Assembly: GCA_003567475.1 (NCBI GenBank)
Contig: PWZL01000085.1
Location: forward strand, 1-32,256
Length of the DNA stretch: 32,256 nt
Direction: 5' to 3'
From: Gammaproteobacteria bacterium
Lineage (GTDB): Bacteria > Pseudomonadota > Gammaproteobacteria > Steroidobacterales > PWYM01
Position numbers and translations under genes: made by a program. The notes beneath the pieces are model-generated. The model had not been told where the DNA came from. It made no database searches and saw only the letters and a program-made list of their open reading frames with translations. Positions within the stretch are counted from its first letter, which is position 1. Every line of letters starts with the position of its first letter. This document shows, piece after piece, positions 27,928 to 32,256 of the stretch.

Positions 27928-27933
27928 TATAAT
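27928..27933 (+). promoter_or_regulatory. -10 box of the TonB receptor/CobN operon
   Basis: TATAAT, a perfect -10 hexamer, lies 45 bases before the receptor ATG in the only AT-rich stretch nearby. The -35 region is poor (GTTTTC or TTTTCC at the expected spacing), compatible with a regulated promoter. Confidence 0.5.
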
Positions 27934-27953
27934 GTTATATAGTTACGTAATTC
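27931..27953 (+). promoter_or_regulatory. Operator-like element (Zur-like half-site, possible metal repressor)
   Basis: AATGTTATA at 27931-27939 matches nine consecutive positions of the left half of the enterobacterial Zur consensus; the right half matches only 4 of 9. It is followed by an 8-base palindrome TTACGTAA at 27943-27950. The element overlaps the -10 box, so a bound repressor would block transcription. Match to the Fur consensus is poorer. The regulator remains a hypothesis. Confidence 0.35.
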
Positions 27954-27977: not shown

Positions 27978-29930
27978 ATGCCTCGATACCGTCCCGGACG
28001 GCGTGCCGCGCTGACCGCCGCTGCCCTCGCCCTGTCGCCTGTCGCTGTCGCCGTCGCTGACAGTCGAGTCATCGATGAGATCGTCGTCACCGCCACGGCC
28101 AGCGAACAGCGGCTGCGCGATGCCCCAGCGGCGATGAGCGTCATCAGCCGCGAACAGCTGGTCGAGCGCCCGGTGCGTGACGTGCTCGACGCCGTCCGGG
28201 AGGTGCCTGGCATCACGCTCACCAGCGCCGCGTTTACCCGAAAGCGGATCAATATCCGCGGCATGGACAACACCCACTCGCTGTTTCTCGTCGACGGCCG
28301 ACGCGTGAACGCCTCCGCCGACGTGATCGCCCACTCCGACTTCGAACTGGGCTGGATTCCCACCGAAGCGATCGAACGGATCGAGGTGGTCCGCGGACCC
28401 ATGTCCTCGCTGTACGGCTCAGAGGCATTGGGTGGCGTCATCAACATCATCACCCGACCGGTCACCGATCGCTGGAGCGCCTCGGCCTCGGCCTCCTGGG
28501 GCGAGCCCTCAGGGCCCGGCGGCCGCGATGCCCAGGCCGGACTGTATGCCGCGGGACCCGTTGTCCCAGAGCGCCTGGGCCTGCGGGTCTATCTGAATCG
28601 TGATGATCGCGCCGAGACCCCGGATCGCGCCGACCCGGCCCTCTCTGCCATCGAAGGCCGGCGCGCCACCAGCGGCGGTGCGACCTTGAGCTGGACGCCA
28701 GCCGATCAGCATCGCATCGACTTTTCCCTGCAGCGCGCCGAGGACACCCGCGAACGCAACACCCGCACGCCGGGCCCGCCGCAGAGCGCCGTGGAACACC
28801 TGTTCCGTGATGACATCACCCGCCAGCAAGTCGACATCCACTACCTCGGCGACTTCACGCGCTTCTCGGTCGAGGCTGGCGCCTACCGCTCGCGTCTGGA
28901 CCGGGAAAACCGCCGCAGCCAGGGCGTTACGCCCACGGCGCCTTCGCGCCTCACCGACGACATCGCCGAGACCCGCGTGCGTTTCGAGGCCGGCCGACGA
29001 CACTTCATCACCGTCGGCGGCGAGTTCCGCCGCGAACAACTCGACGACGGCAGCTTTGTACAGACCGGCACCGAGCGCGTGGAGACCCGCTCGGTCTTCG
29101 TCCAGGACACCATCGACCTCGTCCCCGAACGCCTGTCGCTCACCGTCGGCGGCCGTCTTGACGACCACCAGCGCTTCGGCAGCGAGGTCAGCCCCCGGGC
29201 CTACCTGATCTGGCATGCCACCGAGGCGCTGACGCTGCGCGGCGGCTATGGCGAGGGGTTCAAGGCCCCCACCCTGAAGCAGCTGTCGACGCAGTTCTCG
29301 ACGTTCGGGGGGGGCGGTCGCTTCGAAATCACCGGCAACCCGGCGCTCAAGCCCGAGACCAGCAAAAGCCTCGAGTTCGGCGCGCTGACTGGGCTGGGTG
29401 CGATGACGCTCGAGGCGACGGTCTTCCAGAATACCTTACGTGATCTGGTGCAGACCGCCTGCTTCGCGAACTGCGGGGTCTTCCGCCAGGAACGCCGGAC
29501 GTATGTGAATGTCGCCGAGGCGCGCATCCGTGGCCTGGAGACCGGCGCGACGATCAGCCTGCCGCTGGGCTTCGAGTTCGGCGGCAACTACACCTATCTC
29601 GATGCCCGCGACCGCGAGCGTGACGCGCGCCTGGCCGAGCGGCCGCGCCATACCCTGACCTCGCGTCTTGGTTGGCAAAATGGGGCCTGGTCTGCGCATA
29701 CTCGTGCCCAGCGGATCGGCAGCCAGCTGCGGGACCTCCAGGGCCAGGCGCTGAAGAAACCGCACTACACGCTCTGGCATGCCGGAGCAGCCTTTGCGCT
29801 GAACGAACAGGTGACCCTGCGTGCCGGCGTGGAGAACATCACCAACGAACGGTTGGCCGAGCGCTCCGCGCTGTTCGACTTCGAAGAACGCGGACGCTTC
29901 GTCTACGTCGGGACCAACGTGAGCTTCTGA
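27978..29930 (+). CDS. TonB-dependent outer-membrane receptor (BtuB/CirA/HmuR-like)
   Basis: This is a 650-residue outer-membrane gated channel for a large or metal-bearing ligand, energised by TonB-ExbBD. A signal peptide (about 1-27, 'ALTAAALALSPVAVAVA') is followed by the TonB box DEIVVTAT. The plug domain (about 38-150) has 'PGITLTS', 'INIRGMDNTHSLFLVDGRRV' and 'ERIEVVRGPMSSLYGSEALGGVINIITR'. The barrel contains 'GEGFKAPTLKQL' (FxAP box) and 'NPALKPETSKSLEFG' (NPxL box), both seen in heme receptors but also in BtuB and CirA. A Cys pair 'TACFANCG' probably bridges an extracellular loop. The last residue is Phe, as required for barrel assembly. GGGAG lies about eight bases before the ATG. 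The CobN-like gene starts 3 bases after the stop. Ligand unproven; heme, cobalamin or a metal chelate are candidates. Confidence 0.94.
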   Translation: MPRYRPGRRAALTAAALALSPVAVAVADSRVIDEIVVTATASEQRLRDAPAAMSVISREQLVERPVRDVLDAVREVPGITLTSAAFTRKRINIRGMDNTHSLFLVDGRRVNASADVIAHSDFELGWIPTEAIERIEVVRGPMSSLYGSEALGGVINIITRPVTDRWSASASASWGEPSGPGGRDAQAGLYAAGPVVPERLGLRVYLNRDDRAETPDRADPALSAIEGRRATSGGATLSWTPADQHRIDFSLQRAEDTRERNTRTPGPPQSAVEHLFRDDITRQQVDIHYLGDFTRFSVEAGAYRSRLDRENRRSQGVTPTAPSRLTDDIAETRVRFEAGRRHFITVGGEFRREQLDDGSFVQTGTERVETRSVFVQDTIDLVPERLSLTVGGRLDDHQRFGSEVSPRAYLIWHATEALTLRGGYGEGFKAPTLKQLSTQFSTFGGGGRFEITGNPALKPETSKSLEFGALTGLGAMTLEATVFQNTLRDLVQTACFANCGVFRQERRTYVNVAEARIRGLETGATISLPLGFEFGGNYTYLDARDRERDARLAERPRHTLTSRLGWQNGAWSAHTRAQRIGSQLRDLQGQALKKPHYTLWHAGAAFALNEQVTLRAGVENITNERLAERSALFDFEERGRFVYVGTNVSF

Positions 29931-29933
29931 GCC

Positions 29934-32256
29934 ATGCTGAAAAGTGTCTCACTTCTCGCCTGGATGTCAGCCCTGGCGCTGCTGATGGCAGGGCTCACGC
30001 CATCGGCCGCGGCACCCTCCAGCCCGACCGGTGCCGGGGATGCGCCTCGCGTGGTGATCCTCACCACGGACTTCGTGCTCGATGGCAAGCTCACGCTGGT
30101 GGCCGAGGCCGCCGCGCGCGAAGGCATCGAGGTGAGCTGGTATCGCGCAGGCCGGGATGACGAGGCCGCCGTGGCGGCGGCGCTGCCCGGCGCCGCGCTG
30201 GTGCTGCTGGATACCCCGCGGGGGAATGACGCCGGCACCGTCCGCCAGGCCTTCGCGGCCGCCCTCGCGGGCTGGACGGGTCCCGAATTGATGGTGATTG
30301 GCGGCAGCGGCAACGCGCGCGGACTGGACCCGGCACAGGCGGCGCGCCTGGCCGACTACTACGCCAACGGCACCCGGGCGAATTTCGAGGGATTCTTCCG
30401 GTACTGGGCCGTCGAAATCGCCGGTATCGCCAGCGGCGAGGTTCCCGCCCCCATCATGTACCCCGACAGCGGCATCTACCACCCGGCGTTCCCGGGCCTG
30501 GTGGCGGGGAACCCGCAGACGTATCTCGACTGGCTGAGGACACGCGAGCCGGACACCGGGGCGCCTGGCGGACGGATTGCCGTGCTGATGTCGCAGGGAC
30601 AGTTCAATGCCGACCAGCTCGAGCTGGTCGATCACATGATTGCGCGCATCGAAGCCCGCGGCGCCTCGTCCTGGGTGTTCTGGTTCGGTGGTACCGAGGC
30701 GCCGGGCATGGACGCGATGCTGGCCATCGACGGGCGCAGTGCCGTCGATGCAGTCATCAACATGACTCACCTGCGTGGGCTGGAGGCGCGGCCCCGCGAG
30801 CTTGCCGCGCTGGACATTCCGCTGCTCCAGGGGTTTGTCTACCGGGATGGCGGCGTGGCCGACTGGGGTCGCGATGATGCAGGTATCCCCATGCGTTCGG
30901 TACCCGCGTTTCTCGCCGTCCCGGAACAGATCGGCGCCTTCGACCCGGTCGTAATTGCCGCCCTGGAGGGCGGTCAAGTCGTGCCGATCGACCGCCAGAT
31001 CGACCTGCTGGTGGGCCGGGCCGTGCGCCTCGCCCGCCTGCGCCAGCTCACCCCCGAGACACGGCGCCTCGCGCTGATGTACTGGAGCTACCCGCCGGGT
31101 GAACGCGGCGTATCGGCCTCGAACCTCAACGTGCCGCGCTCGCTGGAGACGATCACCGGCGCATTGGCCGATGCCGGCTACCGCGTCCCGGCCACCACGA
31201 CCGAAGACTTCGAGGCCACGCTGCCGACCCTGCTCGACCCCTGGGCAGGTCGCGTCTCGCCGGCCGCCTGGGCGGAGACCACCCGCACCTGGCAACCGCT
31301 GCCGCTGGGCGACTACCGGGCCTGGTACGACGAGCTGCCGGCAGACGTTCGGGACCGCATCGAGGCGCGCTGGGGCCCACCGGAGCAGGATCCGATGCTG
31401 CTCGACGGTGAGTCGCCCCGGTTTCTCATCCCGGCCTGGCAACTCGGCGAGCTGCTGGTCCTGCCGCAACCGGCGCGCACGCCGGGCGACACCAGCCTGG
31501 CCAGCTATCACGACGGTGCGTTACCCCCGTCGCACGGCTACCTCGCCACCTACCTGCTGGTGCGCGAGCAGTTCGCCGCCGATGCCCTCATTCACTTCGG
31601 CACGCACGGCAACCAGGAGTTTCTCGCTGGCAAGGCCCGCGGGCTGTCGGTCGACGACGATGCCTGGCTGGCGCTTGGCGAACTGCCGGTGATCTATCCG
31701 TACATCACGGACAACATCGGCGAGGCGCTGCAGGCGCGCCGGCGCGGTCAGGCCGTCACGATCAGTCACCAGACGCCGCCCTTCGCCCCGGCCGGGCTGC
31801 ACGGCGAGCTGCTGGAGGTGCATGACCTGATCCATGAGTGGGGGCTGCTGGACGACGGCCCGGTGCGGGCCAGTGCCGAACAGAGCATCATCGCGCGTGT
31901 CAGCGAAGGCACGCTGTACCGTGACCTGGGCTGGACTCCGGAGGCCATGGCGGCGGACTTCGGCGCCTTTGAGCATGACCTGCACCTGTACCTGCACGAG
32001 CTCGCCAGTGATGCCCAGCCCCTGGGCCTGCATACCTTCGGCGGCTACCCGACCCCGGAGCGGCGCGTCGCCACGCTGATGCAGATGCTGGGGGATCGCC
32101 TGATCGAGACTCTGGGGGTAGACGACGCCGAGGAGCTGTTCGTCGAGGACTACACCGCGCTGGCGGCGACCGCCCCCTGGCAGTTCGTCGCGCGATTCGT
32201 GCTCGAGGGCGAGGACCCGGCTAGGCTTGCAGATCCGGCCCTGGAGGGGCTGGCCC
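29934..32256 (+). CDS. CobN-type chelatase large subunit with signal peptide (partial)
   Basis: The first 774 codons of a CobN/BchH-family chelatase large subunit; the gene continues past the window end (typical members have about 1250 residues). Family motifs: 'LMYWSYPPGERGVSASNLNVPRSLETI', 'YHDGALPPSHGYLATYL', 'IHFGTHGNQEFLAGK' (HFGTHG at residues 554-559, Glu562), 'YPYITDNIGEALQARRRG' and 'HGELLEVHDLIHEWG'. Unlike cytoplasmic cobaltochelatase, the N-terminus is a signal peptide: Lys3, a hydrophobic core 'LLAWMSALALLMAGL' and an AAA cleavage region near residue 27. So it should be periplasmic or periplasm-facing. It sits 3 bases after a TonB receptor gene, with no cobS, cobT or cobalamin-synthesis gene in view. 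A role as HmuS-like heme de-chelatase or metal inserter/extractor at the envelope is inferred, not shown. Confidence 0.92.
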   Translation, partial: MLKSVSLLAWMSALALLMAGLTPSAAAPSSPTGAGDAPRVVILTTDFVLDGKLTLVAEAAAREGIEVSWYRAGRDDEAAVAAALPGAALVLLDTPRGNDAGTVRQAFAAALAGWTGPELMVIGGSGNARGLDPAQAARLADYYANGTRANFEGFFRYWAVEIAGIASGEVPAPIMYPDSGIYHPAFPGLVAGNPQTYLDWLRTREPDTGAPGGRIAVLMSQGQFNADQLELVDHMIARIEARGASSWVFWFGGTEAPGMDAMLAIDGRSAVDAVINMTHLRGLEARPRELAALDIPLLQGFVYRDGGVADWGRDDAGIPMRSVPAFLAVPEQIGAFDPVVIAALEGGQVVPIDRQIDLLVGRAVRLARLRQLTPETRRLALMYWSYPPGERGVSASNLNVPRSLETITGALADAGYRVPATTTEDFEATLPTLLDPWAGRVSPAAWAETTRTWQPLPLGDYRAWYDELPADVRDRIEARWGPPEQDPMLLDGESPRFLIPAWQLGELLVLPQPARTPGDTSLASYHDGALPPSHGYLATYLLVREQFAADALIHFGTHGNQEFLAGKARGLSVDDDAWLALGELPVIYPYITDNIGEALQARRRGQAVTISHQTPPFAPAGLHGELLEVHDLIHEWGLLDDGPVRASAEQSIIARVSEGTLYRDLGWTPEAMAADFGAFEHDLHLYLHELASDAQPLGLHTFGGYPTPERRVATLMQMLGDRLIETLGVDDAEELFVEDYTALAATAPWQFVARFVLEGEDPARLADPALEGLA

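Follow-up and report, generated by a model that had tools for sequence, protein, structure and literature searches.

A TonB-dependent receptor and a membrane-anchored HmuS-like chelatase in a predicted Zur-controlled operon of a gammaproteobacterium

HmuS of gut bacteria has been proven to de-chelate heme; it has a bis-His metal site and membrane segments at both ends (PMC12583661). A second described system is the PA1922-PA1925 operon of Pseudomonas aeruginosa (PA14_39620-39650), which encodes a TonB receptor, a CobN-like protein, an ExbD/ExbB-like protein and a small hypothetical protein. It has a Zur site and was upregulated 44- to 147-fold under zinc depletion, in a znuA mutant; its authors proposed a cobalt role or a replacement of cobalt by zinc and called the role undetermined (PMC4542158). 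Zur was later shown to bind the PA1922 promoter in EMSA (PMC8531726). In reviews, PA1922 is taken to be an importer of free zinc (PMC10393844, PMC8456098), and the 2022 review among them describes the Zur control of PA1922 as unique to P. aeruginosa within Pseudomonas (PMC10393844). A 2025 paper still refers to the PA1923 counterpart as the annotated cobaltochelatase (PMC13083405). The accessible portions of this PA1922-PA1925 literature draw no connection to HmuS, and a literature search for zinc-porphyrin de-chelation in bacteria returned no report.

The locus described here lies at the end of a stretch of 32,256 nucleotides that was analysed as a whole (the window) and that makes up the entire contig C28. 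The draft genome has a size of 3.06 Mb and a completeness of 98%. The following features were assigned.

27933..27947, no strand: Zur-box-like operator TGTTATATAGTTACG, 45 bp upstream of the receptor gene, with 4 mismatches to TGTTATANTATAACA
27978..29930, plus strand: TonB-dependent outer-membrane receptor of 650 aa (Pfam PF07715 and PF00593)
28113..28439, plus strand: plug domain of the receptor, aa 46-154 (PF07715, 98.9 bits)
29259..29348, plus strand: FKAP...NPAL segment of the receptor, which has no His
29934..32256, plus strand: N-terminal 774 codons of a membrane-anchored CobN/HmuS-family chelatase (PF02514, 472.6 bits), completed on contig C77
30768..30770, plus strand: codon of His279, the equivalent of the heme-ligand His254 of HmuS; His in 24/25 of the Zur clade
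31593..31610, plus strand: HFGTHG motif with His558, the equivalent of the metal-site His538 of HmuS; this His is invariant across the superfamily

The first-pass annotation had named a TonB receptor with FxAP and NPxL boxes, followed after three bases by a CobN/BchH-family gene whose product is exported. All of this was confirmed. The receptor has FKAP at 29259, NPAL at 29337 and, besides the plug, a barrel domain (PF00593, 208.6 bits), and 3 bp separate its stop codon from the chelatase reading frame, which is open at the window end. No His was found between the two boxes. Among the NCBIfam models CirA-like ones scored best, all of them below their cut-offs, and the heme-receptor model TIGR01785 reached 246.8 bits, under its curated cut-off of 316.85. 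The receptor gives no clue to the ligand.

The remainder of the chelatase was found in frame on the minus strand at the end of contig C77. The junction (DPALEGLA | R-QALAWDRAMTGN) matches an unbroken homologue of 1311 aa in the congener G003, and from this homology we infer the join, which gives a full length of 1309 aa. C77 ends, inside the chelatase gene, in a 48-bp inverted repeat (L018 15191-15238) that is probably an assembly artefact by which the gene was split between the contigs.

Beyond the chelatase, C77 carries the two genes that had been predicted past position 32256, one for a MotA/TolQ/ExbB-like protein of 162 aa and then one for a DUF2149 protein of 104 aa. Each of them overlaps the adjacent gene by 4 nt. 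In a PDB profile search, the ExbB-like protein matched the MotA/PomA stator proteins with an E value of about 0.005. The DUF2149 protein had no meaningful match to the PDB by sequence, and its AlphaFold model (pLDDT 65) was not good enough to back an ExbD-like fold; judged by eye, its conserved transmembrane start N-x-x-D-x-F-L-V resembles ExbD. G003 (L019) has the same operon of four genes, and the same order of receptor, chelatase, ExbB-like and DUF2149 genes was observed in G004 and in G001, where the chelatase frame is interrupted. Since the flanks differ in G001, the unit appears to consist of these four genes alone.

The claim that a B12 riboswitch and cobalamin genes are missing also held. 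An Rfam scan of the window gave no match and hence no B12 riboswitch, CbiC was absent from five genomes of the genus including the source genome, and no cob genes adjoin the chelatase operon. Separately, a bchI-bchD-bchH-like cluster lies apart from other photosynthesis genes in G003 (L022 6926-13939) and at the end of L168 in the source genome, G000. Its BchH-like protein sits on a very long branch; the G000 gene begins at the end of contig C62, and its continuation was not found. A znuA match in the source genome was set aside. It lies on the short contig C96 (L072), together with genes for a znuC-like ATPase and a MEMO-family protein, and this contig looks unlike the rest of the genome and is likely a contaminant; the source genome itself may therefore lack znuABC.

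The chelatase has a hydrophobic signal/anchor segment at its N-terminus and a hydrophobic helix near its C-terminus. Hydrophobic segments at both ends were also seen in most of the relatives linked to DUF2149, and in none of the B12 CobN and BchH proteins. These segments place the protein most likely in the periplasm, with an anchor in the inner membrane, where cytoplasmic AAA+ partners would not reach it.

Species genomes were scanned with an alignment of six sequences, which yielded 80 named loci out of at least 543 relatives; in most of the 80 the receptor, ExbB-like and DUF2149 genes adjoin the chelatase. The main tree was built from 47 proteins with a mixture model and bootstrap. The B12 CobN proteins formed one group (support 100/100), and HmuS formed another, a membrane-anchored family, with all the proteins linked to DUF2149 (100/99). 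Inside the latter, the window chelatase fell into a clade of 17 (100/99), which is called the Zur clade here; its limits were set from the tree and not from the boxes described below. A quick tree of 104 proteins concurred, with 25 rows in this clade. Its members include soda-lake gammaproteobacteria, Bradyrhizobium, Bosea, Phenylobacterium, Niveispirillum, Pseudoxanthomonas and Stutzerimonas stutzeri TS44 (L095), the only named member from the Pseudomonadaceae in this set. The one archaeal plasmid match that was examined was a B12 CobN. On the tree, the window protein is neither a B12 CobN nor a BchH by sequence; it groups with HmuS, in a clade of its own, and a placement inside the aerobic CobN proteins was not seen. 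The metagenome bins of near relatives (DLM, CSSed) are from samples that we take to be soda-lake samples. Free zinc is probably scarce in soda lakes.

The active-site residues were then compared in alignment columns numbered against HmuS. His279, His558, His1065 and Glu1068 of the window protein correspond to His254, His538, His1209 and Glu1212 of HmuS. His538 is invariant in the superfamily alignment. At column 254, nearly all of the Zur clade has His, which is absent from CobN, from BchH and from the other proteins linked to DUF2149; Ile is found in most of the latter, Phe in an 11-member sister clade and Gly in BchH. His1209 and Glu1212 occur together in 23/25 of the Zur clade, and the two exceptions are apparently incomplete genes, L084 being cut by a contig end and L083, probably of this kind, being interrupted. 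The same pair is present in HmuS and in the 11-member sister clade; since the latter has no Zur boxes, His/Glu at 1209/1212 alone is not diagnostic of zinc. The other proteins linked to DUF2149 have Asp with, nearly always, Gln at these positions, as in B12 CobN. The combined set of His254, His1209 and Glu1212 was found in the Zur clade and not in its sister groups. At column 1209 the porphyrin enzymes (HmuS and most of BchH/ChlH) have His and the corrin enzyme Asp, so the His of the window protein points to a porphyrin-like ligand, by analogy with the few characterised members.

Two marks of HmuS are missing. Annotated plasmid-borne HmuS genes served for the comparison at Met79, and Met79-Gly80 is absent: the window protein reads DTPRG, DTPR is conserved across the clade, and among residues 1-350 of the clade proteins there is no conserved Met. 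The Met-rich insertion (domain IV) is absent as well: the window protein has 67 residues with 1 Met in its place, whereas this region is 233 residues long in B. theta HmuS and spans 129-318 residues, 6-30 of them Met, in other HmuS proteins. The protein is therefore not an HmuS in the strict sense of PMC12583661. A five-coordinate zinc porphyrin would fit a protein that has lost Met79, the second axial ligand of HmuS, but kept His254.

The operator TGTTATATAGTTACG has no equally good match elsewhere in the window. About 0.7 to one site with 4 mismatches is expected by chance in 32 kb, and the box is thus believable only through its position and its conservation. The position is kept in the genus with 2-4 mismatches: TGTTATATATTAACA in G004 (2), TGTAATACTATTACG in G001 (3) and TGTTATATAGTTGCA in G003 (4, as in the window). 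In the source genome, the Zur gene itself (contig C8) is preceded by a near-perfect box, TGGTATAATATAACA, and a pattern search of this genome found further boxes before a COG0523 GTPase gene and before a second TonB receptor, which is ZnuD-like by eye.

The 80 loci and the plasmid loci were tested for boxes with up to 3 mismatches in 1.5 kb around the receptor start. A box was found at 17/24 testable loci of the Zur clade and at 0/53 others in the family, with a background of 1.4%; the Fisher value of 7e-12 overstates the independence of the rows, because they are related, and the fewest changes of box state on the tree number 6. In one further clade member, L082, the box lies directly before the chelatase. 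Fur-like sites showed the reverse distribution, 1/24 in the Zur clade vs 17/53 outside, with a background of about 8%. The association was tested afresh with 22 further chelatases linked to DUF2149, from genomes outside the first set. Both proteins with H/H/H/E had a box (2/2, from one genus and hence a small positive side), compared with 0/20 of those without the full residue set, again at a limit of 3 mismatches and at receptor promoters. The two boxes have 3 and 2 mismatches and lie 152 and 246 bp from the called receptor start. Genes for zur and for COG0523 zinc chaperones are nearby in one of these two loci, in Bosea and in Niveispirillum. The promoter site is predicted to be of the Zur and not of the Fur type, and control of the operon by zinc through Zur is well supported at the level of sequence.

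Taken together, these observations give good support to metal acquisition under zinc regulation by an anchored HmuS-like chelatase. Zinc, and not heme iron, is the most likely metal, and the operon most likely belongs to a widespread relative of the PA1922-PA1925 system. The best single explanation, to which we give a probability of about 0.55, is zinc scavenging under Zur control in which the chelatase removes zinc from a tetrapyrrole. What was observed is the gene order, the segments for export and anchoring, the phylogeny, the Zur boxes and the conserved residues; from these we infer that zinc is the cargo and a tetrapyrrole its ligand, as well as the chemistry and the source of power. Under zinc shortage, Zur would leave the box at 27933 and the operon would be expressed. 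The TonB receptor would carry a zinc complex, most likely a zinc tetrapyrrole or a similar chelate, into the periplasm, where the chelatase would be held to the inner membrane by its C-terminus and probably also by its N-terminus. His279 would serve as the single axial ligand of the bound complex, and the metal would be withdrawn at the His558/His1065/Glu1068 site, as HmuS does with heme iron. Being periplasmic, the chelatase would make no use of the ATP-driven partners of the CobN/BchH type, and the ExbB/MotA-like and DUF2149 proteins would probably power either the chelatase or the receptor from the proton-motive force. The complete scheme, a zinc piracy in which zinc-starved bacteria import zinc tetrapyrroles that are then stripped by a periplasmic class I chelatase driven by the proton gradient through ExbB-DUF2149 and free of AAA+ ATPases, is more tentative, and we rate it somewhat below even odds.

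Zur control would be equally compatible with a zinc importer that involves no tetrapyrrole chemistry, as the reviews assume for free zinc and PA1922 (PMC10393844, PMC8456098). Free zinc or an ordinary zincophore would then be taken up, and the CobN-like protein would be a periplasmic zinc-binding or chelate-opening protein. We consider this unlikely, as every superfamily member of known function acts on tetrapyrroles, and as the catalytic residues and the tetrapyrrole ligand His254 have been kept, which a simple carrier would not need. A cobalt or corrinoid system, with cobalt standing in for zinc in starved cells or with a cobalt chelate as the substrate, is improbable. In its favour, cobalt was raised in the P. 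aeruginosa znuA mutant and the operon was proposed as a cause (PMC4542158), and cobalt relieves zinc starvation (PMC13083405); in addition, cobalamin riboswitches occur with a distant relative on a Trichlorobacter plasmid. However, the well supported tree separates the window protein from B12 CobN, it has His/Glu instead of the Asp/Gln of CobN, CbiC is missing from the genus and the window has no riboswitch.

The first-pass annotation had proposed an HmuR-HmuS-like operon for tetrapyrrole or metal scavenging and favoured an HmuRS of Proteobacteria that removes the iron of heme. The architecture, which follows hmuR-S-U-V, the position inside the wider clade that contains HmuS and the bis-His/Glu metal site with His254 bear out the HmuS-like part of this claim. 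Heme as the substrate was not borne out and is the least probable of the readings. The promoters are of the Zur and not of the Fur type, Fur-like sites being nearly confined to loci outside the clade, the FxAP-NPxL segment of the receptor has no His, TIGR01785 stayed below its cut-off, and HmuY, HmuT, Met79 and the Met-rich insertion are all missing.

Other subgroups of the family were found with other regulatory elements. Fur-like promoters precede the module in Pseudomonas schmalbachii, P. fluvialis, Alkalilimnicola and Zoogloea, and cobalamin riboswitches are associated with it in Trichlorobacter. On a Runella slithyformis plasmid (L051 2545-13262), the module is embedded in a cluster of hyp genes for hydrogenase maturation that also has a urease-accessory-like gene, which suggests a nickel version. 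The module looks like a general uptake kit for metal chelates in which regulator and active site change together.

A paired GCCAGCC motif (e.g. CAGCCAGCCAGG-N12-AGCCAGCC) was observed in the mRNA leader of a non-Zur, often Fur-like subgroup. At least 2 copies were present at 17/38 loci vs 0/15 in the Zur clade, with a background of 1.8%; the loci include L101, L141, L142, L127, L090, L098, L110, L112, L136, L139 and L140. Most of the pairs are located no more than about 80 nt upstream of the receptor start; the motif is not self-complementary, and the element had no Rfam match in the loci scanned. Another gammaproteobacterial subgroup (L181-L184, L186-L190) has longer chelatases of 1433-1495 aa with the motif DNNDxFDYLGG (Asp/Asp), adjoining ExbB-like genes and a divergent DUF2149; no regulator was found at these loci.

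Since 2015, the CobN-like gene in the zinc regulon of P. aeruginosa has been interpreted as one for cobalt. A clade that extends across the Proteobacteria and is tied to Zur and to the HmuS metal site provides a testable role for the non-B12 'cobaltochelatase' of zinc regulons, and many genes with the cobaltochelatase label are probably mislabelled. If the proposal is true, metallo-tetrapyrroles serve as a source of zinc besides iron, and more than one lineage has chelatases that function outside the cytoplasm and independently of ATPases.

Compared with known systems, the aerobic cobaltochelatase CobN shares the PF02514 superfamily and the HxGxHG motif with the window protein, but has no membrane anchors, carries Asp/Gln at 1209/1212 and is located with cob genes. 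The magnesium chelatase BchH/ChlH belongs to the same superfamily and mostly has His at 1209; it differs in its lack of anchors, its partners BchI/BchD, Gly at 254, Asp at 1212 and its separate clade. The hmuYRSTUV operon of Bacteroidota (HmuS 9d26) likewise has genes for a receptor, an anchored chelatase, an ExbB-like and a DUF2149 protein, and His254, His538, His1209 and Glu1212 of HmuS are all matched in the window protein. In contrast to the six-gene operons (L169, L171), the window operon has four genes, without HmuY and HmuT; the Met-rich insertion and Met79-Gly80 of HmuS are absent from the window protein, the window operon has a Zur-type promoter, and its chelatase falls into a separate clade. 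The description of the locus as a little-studied gammaproteobacterial version was right, but a Zur operon of equal layout had already been reported with PA1922-PA1925 (PMC4542158). With this system the window operon shares layout and predicted Zur control, a likeness drawn from the reported layout and regulation. The 2022 review confines such control within Pseudomonas to P. aeruginosa, whereas here it spans alpha- and gammaproteobacteria.
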